Shown here one piece after another: positions 1,952-29,028 of a stretch of 33,076 bases of DNA. The notes under the pieces are model-generated. The model saw nothing but the letters and a program-made list of their open reading frames with translations, was not told where the DNA came from and did no database searches. The translations under genes were made by a program, and so were the position numbers. This stretch comes from Micropruina sp. Lineage in GTDB: Bacteria; Actinomycetota; Actinomycetes; Propionibacteriales; Propionibacteriaceae. The number at the start of each line of letters is the position of its first letter. Position 1 is the stretch's first letter. The stretch lies in NCBI GenBank assembly GCA_018055925.1, contig JAGPGQ010000009.1, positions 1 to 33,076 of the forward strand, given 5' to 3'.

Positions 1952-2641
1952 CTACCGGCGCACCGGAAGGTCGGTGGCCGCCAGCCGGACGACCACCCCG
2001 TCGTCGGCGACCGAGAGGCCGGTGACCCGGATGCGTTCGTCCACTGCCAGCGAAATGGGTTTCACGACGCCGTCGATCAGCTGCTGGGAGCGGGACGGGC
2101 TGAGCGTGGCGCCGGCGACGTCGATCCGGGCCTGGGTGAGGTGTACCTGCTGGGTCGCGGCGTCCAGTTCGGGTACCGCCGAGATGCCGATCCGCATGCT
2201 CTGGCCGAGCAGGCTCACGGTGTAGGTGACCAGCAGGCGCCCGTCCCCGCCGGACGCGATGGGCAGGCCGGCCACCTCGCTCAGGCTGCTCCAGCCGAGC
2301 GTCCCGGACAGGTTCAGCCGGCCGATCACCGCCTCCTCGGTGCTGCGCAGCCGGATGTCGGAGGCGTCGTAGTCGATCGAACGGACCGGCACCCGGCGTC
2401 CCTCGAACGGCACCTCGGCGGAGTCGGCGGTGCCCGAGACGTCCACGAAACGGCCCTGGACGAGCGCGGCCAGCACCGAGCCGCCACCCAATTGCAGGGT
2501 CGGGCGCTTGAGTTGGAGGTCGGTGCCGGCGAGCGCGCGCTGCACCTGGGAGTCGATCAGGCCGCGGACGCCGACCTCGGCCCCGACCAGCAGCGCGGCC
2601 AGGACGCCGAGGACGAGCAGCAGCCGGCCGAGGCGTCGCAT
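1952..2641 (-). CDS. DUF2993 (LmeA-like) phospholipid-binding-type exported protein
   Basis: 229 residues. The N-terminus has an Arg-Arg stretch followed by a hydrophobic segment (about residues 6-22, [18 protein letters not shown]) that can act as a signal anchor. The rest is a beta-rich DUF2993 domain with typical segments such as [11 protein letters not shown] and LSLAGLP-like repeats. The characterised member is mycobacterial LmeA, a periplasmic lipid-binding protein needed for lipomannan maturation. A role in envelope lipid or glycolipid handling is therefore reasonable, but it is only family inference. The start is one base after the dapB stop, so the two genes are probably co-transcribed and coupled. 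Confidence 0.75.
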
Positions 2642-2642
2642 C

Positions 2643-3447
<805 letters not shown>

Positions 3448-3677
3448 CGGGTCACACGGCACTCACGCGCCCGGCAGGCCGTCGTCCGCGACGAGGCCCG
3501 GGGTGACGACTCGCATACCGATCGCGCGATCGACCACAGATTTCGGGATCAGGCACCTACTGGACGGAAATAACCCGAAAGCAGTCGCCGTTCCGGCCAG
3601 CAGTGGACGATGGCGCGATCGTCCGGCCGATTGGCCTCCCGGCGCCGGCACAACGCCGGGTGCCCCCGCCACCGGAA
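3448..3677. other. Intergenic stretch with no supported gene
   Basis: This lies between the dapB upstream region and the palindrome at 3678. It has a less GC-rich patch at about 3530-3580. A 69-codon minus frame crosses it but lacks any recognisable motif. I see no RNA gene. Confidence 0.4.
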
Positions 3678-3739
3678 AGCCCTGCCTAACTATCTCTGCC
3701 CTCCCGTCGACGGGAGGGCAGAGATAGTTAGGCAGGGCT
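3678..3739 (-). terminator. Perfect 62-bp palindrome, probable terminator of the glycan operon
   Basis: Two 31-bp arms are exactly complementary with no unpaired loop, centred on GTCGAC between 3708 and 3709. The element sits 11 bases past the stop of the last operon gene (3751). On the minus strand the hairpin is followed at once by TTTCC, a weak U-tract. A transcription terminator is the simplest reading; a protein-binding palindrome or a mobile repeat unit is possible. Confidence 0.6.
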
Positions 3740-3750
3740 CTTCGGGCGGA

Positions 3751-4767
3751 TCAGGTGGCCAGGTCGGGTGCCCGGAACGCGTAGACGGCGGCGAGACGGC
3801 GGGCGGTCAGGGCGCGGTAGCCGGGCAGGCGCTCGCGCACGCCGGCGTCGGGACGGTAGCCGTCGAGCAGGGCGGCGATCGCGTCGTCCGGGTCGGCGAG
3901 CACACCCTGGCGGCCGCGCAGCCGGAGATGCTCGATCAGGTTGGCCAGATCGAGTGCCGGGTCGCCGGCGGCCAGCAGGTCGAAGTCGAGCAGCCCGACG
4001 CCGTCCGGTCCGGGGTCGTCGGACACCAGGAACTGCCCGTCGTGGACGTCGCGGTGGATCGCGACCGGACGGAGCACCGGCGGTGGCGGCGGCATCTCAG
4101 CCACGCTCGGCAGCGGCAGCCCGAACGCCCGGGCCCGCTCCTCCCAGCCCTCGGTCACGGCCAGTTCGTCGGCGGGACCGTGCAACCCCGACCCGGACGG
4201 CGCGGCACAGCCGTGCAGCCGGGCGAGGGCCTCGCCCACCGCGACCAGCGCCGGCCCGGGGTTCGCCGTGGCGAGCAGCCCGGTCAGTGGACGGCCGGGC
4301 AGCGCGTCCGTGGTGACCACCGGTCCGGCATCGTCCCCGGCCAGGACAGGGGTGCGGATCGGCAGCCCCGCCACCCGCCGGAGCCCGCGCCGGATCCGCT
4401 CGGCCCGGCGCCGGCCGTCGACCAGCTTCGCGAACCGGGCACCGTCGTCGAGCGCGACCACCGCCCGGCGTTCGGATCGGTGAGCGATCAGCCGGCTGCC
4501 CGGGCGGCGCAGCAGCCCCGGCAGCTCGGTCAGCACCCGGTCGGCCCCCTCCGGCTGCAGCACGACCCTGCCCGCCGGCCGCGCCCCGGGAGTCGCCGCC
4601 GCCACGTCGGCGGCCACCGATCGGTCGGCGAACCACTGGCCGGCCACCCGAACGCCGGAGCCGGCATCGAGGTCGAGCAGCAGGTGCCCGTCCGACCGCG
4701 GCCAGGACCGGCGCAGCCGCATCCCGGTGCCCTCGATCTCCGCCCGGACGGTGTCGAAGGCGGTCAT
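3751..4767 (-). CDS. APH-fold phosphotransferase, last gene of glycan operon
   Basis: 338 residues, of the aminoglycoside phosphotransferase/choline kinase fold. The catalytic loop reads HRDVHDGQFL (238-247) with catalytic Asp240. The metal-binding position, usually Asn, is Gln245. The second metal-binding motif is LLDFD, with Asp261 and Asp263. The N-terminal lobe is poorly conserved, and FAKLVDG may carry the ATP-binding lysine. The fold phosphorylates hydroxyls of small molecules or sugars, and no substrate can be read from the sequence. The ATG at 4767 overlaps the previous stop as ATGA, so I chose it over a much longer frame that merely runs through the upstream gene. Linkage to glycosyltransferases and an exporter suggests a sugar or glycolipid substrate, not antibiotic resistance. 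Confidence 0.8.
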   Translation of the reverse strand: MTAFDTVRAEIEGTGMRLRRSWPRSDGHLLLDLDAGSGVRVAGQWFADRSVAADVAAATPGARPAGRVVLQPEGADRVLTELPGLLRRPGSRLIAHRSERRAVVALDDGARFAKLVDGRRRAERIRRGLRRVAGLPIRTPVLAGDDAGPVVTTDALPGRPLTGLLATANPGPALVAVGEALARLHGCAAPSGSGLHGPADELAVTEGWEERARAFGLPLPSVAEMPPPPPVLRPVAIHRDVHDGQFLVSDDPGPDGVGLLDFDLLAAGDPALDLANLIEHLRLRGRQGVLADPDDAIAALLDGYRPDAGVRERLPGYRALTARRLAAVYAFRAPDLAT

Positions 4768-5939
4768 GCCACGGACTCCTCCAGCGCCGCCAGCCGGGCC
4801 TGGATCTCGGTGCGCCACTCCACCCGGCACTGCCGCAACGGTTCGGTCAACCGGAGCAGTCGGGTGACCGCGGTGTGCCAGTCGACGGCCTCCGGCAGGT
4901 CTCGGACGGCCGTGTACCCGGCGAGGACCGCGGCGTAGCCGTCCTCGGGGAGCCCCGCCGCGCGGAGGCTGCCCAGGTCGGTGGCGGGGTCGCCCCAGCC
5001 GCCCCGGTCCCAGTCGGTGAGGCCGACGGAGCCGTCCGGTCCGACGATCACCTGGTCGGCCGAGAAGTCGCCGTGGATCGGCCGCACCAGGCGCGCCTCG
5101 GGCGCCCGCGCGGTCAGGCTCAGCAGCAGTTCCCCGGCCCGGGCGCGATGGTCGGGCAGCACCGCGGCGACCTCGCGCAGCACCGCCCGCGCGGCCCGGA
5201 GGCGTCCGGCCACTCCGTCCCCGGGCCGGGCGGGCAGGCCGGCGTGCAGCCGGGCGAGCTGGTCGCCGACCCGGACGAGCAACTCGGTGTCGACCGGGCC
5301 GCCGGCGAGCAGCCGATCCAAGGGTGCGCCCGGCAGCCAGGAGGTGGTCGCGATGCCACCCCGGCGAGCCCGGACGAGGATCCGCGGCAGCACCAGCCCG
5401 GCGCCGCGCGCGGCCACCTCGGTGGCCAGGTCCCAGCCGGCCAACGCCCGGGGCAGATCGTTGCGCCGGTAGGCGCGCACCACGTAGGGCAGGGCGCGCC
5501 CGCTTTCGAACGGACGGGCGACCCAGCGGCGTTGCGGCTTGTAGGCCAGGGTTTCCCAGCGTGCGGCCCGCACCCCCTCGGGCAGCGCCGCGGCCAGCCG
5601 GTCCGGCCGGAGCACGCCGGGCAGGTCGCGGTCGGCGCCAGCCCGGGCGATCAACAGGCCGTTGGCCGGGGACCAGCACAGCACCGAACCCTCCGGCGCC
5701 CGGTCGACCGTCTTGCGCGGCTTCGCCGCGGCGGCGGCACCGACCGCGTAGGCGAAGGCGTGCCCGGAGGCCAGCCGCAGCCCGGCGACCAGGCTGGTGC
5801 CGGGCTTGTACCGCAGGTAGCCGCGGTCGATCAGCCGTTCGCCGGCCTCGGCCAGGATCTGCCACAGCCGGTCGCCGTCGCCGATCAGCGCCACCCCGGG
5901 AACCGACGCGTCGGTGAGCCCGAGTTCTCCGAGGCTCAT
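4764..5939 (-). CDS. APH-fold phosphotransferase, paralogue of the next gene
   Basis: 391 residues from the ATG at 5939, which overlaps the exporter's stop as ATGA. An ATG 12 bases further upstream is possible. The N-terminal 120 or so residues form a separate alpha/beta part without a recognised motif; the kinase lobes follow. The catalytic loop is IHGDFSADQV with Asp291, again with Gln (Gln296) where Asn is canonical. The metal motif is TDWDRG with Asp309 and Asp311, followed by GDPATDLG. The shared Asn-to-Gln change links it to the downstream kinase. The operon position, directly after an ABC exporter and before a second kinase, suggests sequential or paired phosphorylation in one pathway. 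The substrate is unknown. Confidence 0.8.
   Translation of the reverse strand: MSLGELGLTDASVPGVALIGDGDRLWQILAEAGERLIDRGYLRYKPGTSLVAGLRLASGHAFAYAVGAAAAAKPRKTVDRAPEGSVLCWSPANGLLIARAGADRDLPGVLRPDRLAAALPEGVRAARWETLAYKPQRRWVARPFESGRALPYVVRAYRRNDLPRALAGWDLATEVAARGAGLVLPRILVRARRGGIATTSWLPGAPLDRLLAGGPVDTELLVRVGDQLARLHAGLPARPGDGVAGRLRAARAVLREVAAVLPDHRARAGELLLSLTARAPEARLVRPIHGDFSADQVIVGPDGSVGLTDWDRGGWGDPATDLGSLRAAGLPEDGYAAVLAGYTAVRDLPEAVDWHTAVTRLLRLTEPLRQCRVEWRTEIQARLAALEESVA

Positions 5940-26832: not shown

Positions 26833-29028
<2,196 letters not shown>

Follow-up and report, generated by a model that had tools for sequence, protein, structure and literature searches.

Why does a perfect 62-bp palindrome stand between two genes of a Micropruina genome, and what keeps its two arms matched to the last base? 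The palindrome was found in a stretch of 33,076 nucleotides of contig JAGPGQ010000009.1 (assembly GCA_018055925.1), hereafter the window, and an earlier note made from the letters alone had described it as free of any loop; its position and sequence, with 31-bp arms, no mismatch and no spacer, proved exact (Table 1). The same note considered the arms less GC-rich than their surroundings, which is true of the middle 12 bp and wrong for the outer and inner 7-bp blocks, both of them GC-rich. In the following, G000 denotes the window's own genome (3.95 Mb, 391 contigs) and G001 to G005 other genomes of the genus.

Table 1 Features of the palindrome and of its neighbourhood (window positions; family 1 is the repeat family to which the palindrome belongs).
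Feature	Positions	Strand	Basis
Perfect spacer-free palindrome, one family 1 copy	3678-3739		Sequence; arm matches, covariance model
58-bp core, exact in 24 of 38 own-genome copies	3680-3737		Alignment of copies
Left arm, outer 7-bp block CCCTGCC; mirror image 3731-3737	3680-3686		Sequence; layout compared with family 2 by eye
Left arm, middle 12 bp TAACTATCTCTG; variable between subfamilies, both arms altered together; mirror image 3719-3730	3687-3698		Comparison of copies
Left arm, inner 7-bp block CCCTCCC; mirror image 3712-3718	3699-3705		Sequence
Centre GTCGAC; in most G004 copies GCATGC, GCATGT or ACATGC/T instead	3706-3711		Sequence, comparison of copies
76-bp span including outer flanks; loose mirror-symmetric consensus, CCCGNAARS at left	3671-3746		Alignment of copies
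APH phosphotransferase gene (Pfam); stop codon 3751-3753, 11 bp from the palindrome; ends a row of minus-strand genes	3751-4767	-	Own gene calls, Pfam
dapB, next gene on the same strand; ATG (3377) 300 bp beyond the palindrome	2643-3377	-	Sequence, gene calls

The palindrome is the strongest short-loop hairpin of the window, the runner-up having a score of 13 (17 pairs, 1 mismatch, loop of 8). Folded as minus-strand RNA it reached -86.2 kcal/mol for 101 nt (z = -12.3) and as plus-strand DNA a z of -9.7, with 0 of 200 shuffles equally stable in either case; as RNA or single-stranded DNA the hairpin retains a 4-nt loop. Among other actinobacteria (80 loci, 790,570 bp) we found seven hairpins with perfect arms of at least 20 bp, the longest of 26 bp, each of them with a loop of 1-10 nt. 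GC-rich actinobacteria have few T-run terminators. The remark of the earlier note that such arms are longer than a terminator needs is fair. A consensus terminator scan of window positions 2500-5000 gave 0 sites, so that no canonical U-tract terminator was detected there, and the consensus flank after the stem carries about three T. The Rfam scan of the window assigned no family to the palindrome; its sole match was an Actino-pnp RNA elsewhere (RF01688, 29089-29149, minus strand, 62 bits), which directly precedes a long gene of that strand (26833-29028).

The surroundings of dapB hold further repeats. A second dispersed repeat with imperfect inverted ends lies between the palindrome and dapB (3517-3629), with BLAST matches in the G004 contigs C11, C78, C99, C118 and C121 and one in the own genome at 72% (L158). 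A Micropruina MAG (L001) has a dapB with 92% identity to the window's, and a long imperfect inverted repeat (CGGTCTGATATCGAC..., 236-336) is located upstream of the gene there. Palindromes upstream of dapB occur in both the window and G002; the neighbouring gene differs, and they were not counted as a shared locus.

The palindrome belongs to a dispersed repeat family. The check proposed by the earlier note, a genome search for copies of the arms, was run with the arm 15-mer CTAACTATCTCTGCC, which gave 38 matches per strand in G000 at up to 2 mismatches; the 76 matches fall without exception into 38 opposed pairs at a distance of 31 bp, with no single arms and no arm match at a larger distance among them, and a control search with the pattern reversed found 0. 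Chance or one local event is ruled out by these 38 paired copies. With 1 mismatch allowed, the same 15-mer matched, among 57 genomes, only G000, G003 and G004, all of one genus. A covariance model built on 51 of the 53 aligned copies (two shifted copies were excluded) found, with at most 84 candidates scored per genome and both strands counted, at least 80 matches in G000, at least 42 in G003, at least 64 in G004 and at least 4 in G005, and none in G001 and G002 among the matches listed. A deeper search of seven genomes likewise gave none in these two and 6 matches in G005, 4 of which come from two strong places, each counted once per strand. Relatives of family 1 are consequently present in three of the five other genomes of the genus, and the other two gave none. 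Outside the genus, the model search of 57 genomes returned weak or short matches alone, in six genomes (E 5e-5 to 9e-4), which were taken for ordinary GC hairpins. A 22-mer of the palindrome had no exact match in viral contigs and the 101-bp stretch had no blastn match in plasmids and phages, which speaks against carriage by phages, plasmids or viral contigs.

A scan of the retrieved stretches gave a catalogue of 85 copies (39 in G000, 16 in G003, 29 in G004 and 1 in G005), beyond which there is a second G005 copy in L198 and a diverged G004 copy in L264. Perfect arms of at least 29 bp were present in 27 of the 39 G000 copies, 12 of the 29 G004 copies, 5 of the 16 G003 copies and not in the G005 copy (0 of 1). 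The perfection of the palindrome had been read in the earlier note as a sign of recent origin. In favour of this, 24 of the 38 own-genome copies with full flanks share one identical 58-bp core; against it, perfection is a trait of a family of about 40 members, and related copies occupy loci shared with a sister species, so that the family is older than the species split though its sequence stays uniform. At two own-genome copies (L163 and L247) the flanks reach 98-100% identity with G003 or G005, in contrast to 80-92% at other shared loci, and these copies may represent assembly contamination or recent transfer. An open-access literature search gave no account of these repeats: the main text of the Micropruina genome paper (PMC5974061) mentions no palindromes, hairpins or terminators, and Micropruina is not named in the excerpts of a REP survey (PMC12306157).

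The copies are placed at gene ends. According to our own codon-usage gene calls, and with loci common to two species counted more than once, the 85 copies comprise 36 in tandem gaps, 31 in convergent gaps, 5 in divergent gaps and 13 at contig edges, so that 5 of the 72 copies flanked by genes on both sides are divergent. A stop codon lies within 100 bp of 64 of the 67 tandem or convergent copies. In the tandem gaps the upstream stop is nearer than the downstream start in 33 of 36 cases (medians 36.5 and 109 bp; Wilcoxon p 4.8e-6). The copies of G000 alone (10 convergent, 23 tandem, 3 divergent), compared with 60 copy-free gaps (5, 34 and 21, respectively), are depleted in divergent gaps (Fisher p 0.0034; chi-square p 0.0024), and lowering the gene cut-off changed little for the 38 own copies (24 tandem, 9 convergent, 3 divergent, 2 edge). 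The copy at L143 follows an ordinary-looking GC hairpin (by eye) and may be redundant there. Placement, symmetry and stability together point to a two-way terminator or a 3'-end stabiliser; the weak T-tail, the copies in divergent gaps and the possible redundancy at L143 speak against it.

The two arms change in pairs. Subfamilies differ in the middle 12 bp (for instance TAACTATCTCTG, TAACTAGTTCTG, TAACTAGTTCAG, TAACCATCTCTG and CAATCAGTTCTG) and also in the centre, which is GTCGAC or, in G004, GCATGC or a similar sequence. The covariation alignment used 49 of the 85 copies; of the remainder, 31 repeated an included row letter for letter and five were excluded for shifted arms. In its 45 distinct rows 96.1% of the cells are paired and 12 of the 27 pairs show double changes; double changes occupy 94 cells, compared with 28.7 in shuffled alignments, none of 500 of which reached that number, and with no more than 6 when the partner was slid. 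These cells are not independent events because the subfamilies are related. The non-Watson-Crick cells (1215 cells in all) were 11 G-U, 18 A-C and 29 others, and in the sense RNA of the tandem copies 5 G-U, 5 A-C and 25 others. G-U is thus not favoured over A-C, indicating that the arms stay paired by the rules of DNA or for the sake of both strands. Since each G-U of one transcript appears as an A-C in the opposite transcript, DNA-level matching and selection on both strands fit equally; the latter, proposed in the earlier note, agrees with the gene 3'-end positions if the palindrome is a signal read from both strands. A few copies (L229 at 2511, L233) combine arms from two subfamilies, as recombination would give. 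Within single copies, the left and right flanks match no better than expected, despite the mirror-symmetric consensus of the flanks.

Copies are uniform within a species, even at loci that two species share. Comparison of the flanks of the G000 and G004 copies gave eight clear shared loci, at which the identity of the 58-bp core was 0.988 within G000 and 0.915 within G004, the latter uniformity being overstated to some degree by the more diverged G004 copies that exist outside the catalogue of 85. Between the species, orthologous copies were 0.860 identical and non-orthologous pairs also 0.860, and all random pairings reached the observed value; an earlier version with 10 pairs, including two of doubtful pairing at L142/L229, gave 0.853 for both, with 0.80 of permutations as high. 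Orthologous copies are therefore no more alike than other cross-species pairs while identity within each species is high, which indicates concerted evolution. At a ninth shared locus, L166/L264, the copy of G004 is decayed, with an identity of 0.76. Some pairs match closely at their junctions by eye (L148/L177, L157/L224 and the right side of L139/L216), which argues for one old insertion there; at shared loci whose gaps are too diverged, repeated insertion at the same place may have occurred.

The gaps of relatives that match own-genome copies were compared as well. The 14 locus pairs with both flanks, from 14 own-genome loci against G002, G003 and G004 (two L160 pairs with one flank only were excluded), gave one diverged family 1 copy (L264), three palindromes of a second family (L256, L257 and L270), one run of N (L261) and nine gaps with neither. 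Matching gaps are thus mostly without a copy, indicating that presence differs between species. The gap with the run of N, in G004 and matching L153, is filled with repeats of the type TTGGTCGAGCTTGTCGAGACC.

The second family (family 2) was encountered in the G002 stretch matching the L151 gap, as a perfect 60-bp palindrome (CGCTCGCCCAACTACCGAG..., centre AAGCTT). Its 19-mer, at up to 3 mismatches, gave 24 + 21 matches in G002 (control 0 + 2) and 3 + 4 in G004 (control 1 + 2), with the other four genomes at control level; many copies are imperfect. When long hairpins were counted, 400 kb of G002 contained five, two of them family 2, and 200 kb of G005 contained one, with none in the 200 kb examined of G001. 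By eye, the layout is that of family 1: a 7-bp block, 12 bp starting YAACTA, a 7-bp block again and 3 bp to the centre. Thirteen G002 copies, located by approximate centres, comprise 7 tandem, 4 convergent and 1 divergent copy and one at an edge; a stop codon lies within 100 bp of all but one of the 11 in tandem or convergent gaps. It is a tentative and rather unlikely proposal that families 1 and 2, which have this layout in common and occupy corresponding gene ends in different species, are versions of one self-maintaining 3'-end element, all copies of which each lineage would rewrite to its own version, by a non-RAYT copying process or a reading factor undescribed in the literature searched.

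Several other accounts of these repeats have to be weighed. A small non-autonomous mobile element (REPIN- or MITE-like), served by a trans-acting transposase, would need no function, and its gene-end bias would reflect the loss of other insertions; this is possible, though we find it doubtful. Dispersed, intergenic and nearly uniform copies, subfamilies that differ by species and own-genome copies missing from the relatives' matching gaps in most tested pairs are what such an element would leave, but no target duplication or exact empty site was readable in the 14 matching-gap pairs, and several copies stand at matching junctions in two species. Of the six genomes, which are 84-89% complete, only G003 and G005 matched the Y1 transposase family PF01797, once each, and no hairpin passed the cut-off in the 3.3-kb stretches around these two genes; the two genomes richest in copies, G000 and G004, gave no match, and neither did G001 and G002. 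PF01797 does not track the copies, and mobilisation by RAYT (Y1/RAYT, the one mobiliser family tested) is not supported.

The concerted change could alternatively come from selection for a changed binding factor instead of recombination. A DNA site for a symmetric binding protein (e.g. a nucleoid or topology protein) between transcription units, whose copies change with the protein, would account for the spacer-free symmetry, for the mirror-symmetric flank consensus without left-right matching, for the altered sequence that every copy of a lineage carries at shared loci and for G-U not being favoured over A-C; we judge it improbable, as the uniform 58-bp core far exceeds a usual protein site and the middle 12 bp are free to vary between subfamilies provided that the arms match. 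A role as a DNA uptake signal, by analogy with Neisseria, where uptake sequences arranged as inverted pairs double as terminators, seems very improbable: the inverted pairs at gene ends and the species-specific versions do resemble those described for Neisseria (in parts of PMC3630211 and PMC2267715), but the 76 of 76 paired arm matches leave no single sites and there are only about 40 copies. An assembly or binning artefact, which might be suspected from the several G003 and G004 contigs that end in or beside a copy and from L163 and L247 as possible contamination, is hardly credible. The same palindrome stands between different unique flanks at 38 places of one genome, making assembly error unlikely, and it recurs in two other assemblies, while family 2 lies on long contigs of G002.

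On balance, and with modest confidence, we take the palindrome for a dispersed intergenic hairpin repeat of Micropruina-like actinobacteria that most likely acts as a two-way terminator or 3'-end hairpin and would be homogenised by recombination or template switching. A polymerase leaving the upstream gene on either strand would produce an RNA hairpin of 27-29 bp, which would stop or pause the polymerase and protect the new 3' end. In the window the palindrome would close off the minus-strand gene row ending at 3751 and keep read-through transcription out of dapB. Gene conversion, by recombination between copies, would keep the copies of one genome alike, and template switching between arms would keep the arms of each copy complementary. 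Gene conversion was reportedly proposed for REPs by Higgins et al. in 1988. Template switching makes and mends perfect hairpin stems, as described in part of PMC8794818. Dispersed repeats in compact bacterial genomes are usually attributed to transposases or to site-by-site selection; here, copies at loci that two species share follow the species and not the locus, with the arms still complementary, offering a clean natural case for the homogenisation of short non-coding repeats. They also offer a test case for repeated hairpins as a possible standard means of ending transcripts in GC-rich actinobacteria.

Compared with known systems, the repeats share with intrinsic (Rho-independent) terminators, including tail-poor and bidirectional ones, a GC-rich hairpin just past stop codons in convergent and tandem gaps, but they differ in having about three T after the stem, no match in the terminator scan, a stem of 29-31 bp and one sequence throughout the genome. 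According to sections of PMC13155455, inverted repeats with a 4-bp spacer are preferred in bacteria, and the ends of transcripts are enriched in repeats. The REP/BIME units and REPINs (treated in parts of PMC8049555 and PMC3116915; stem-loop survey in PMC2267715) are likewise short, palindromic, intergenic, many-copy and often 3'-end repeats; whereas REPs and REPINs consist of two imperfect units and a spacer, with singlets common, the present palindrome is perfect over its full length and lacks a spacer, the arm search gave no single halves, and no linked Y1/RAYT gene was found by the PF01797 search of six genomes. The uptake-signal terminators of Neisseria and Haemophilus, as far as the cited sections describe them, also use one repeated sequence as an inverted pair at gene ends in species-specific versions, but uptake sequences number hundreds of mostly single sites, in contrast to the 38 pairs without a single site in G000. 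Asanoa ishikariensis has a genus-specific repeated hairpin too (GTTAACAAGGG; 50 + 38 matches against 0 + 0 in the control, one genome; places L054 at about 5765, L344, L346 and L347), which differs in sequence and has a loop of several bases or a mixed arrangement. The palindrome is therefore ordinary as a repeated intergenic palindrome, and unusual in its perfection, in the 7-12-7-3 layout found in two families and in its strict within-species uniformity at shared loci.
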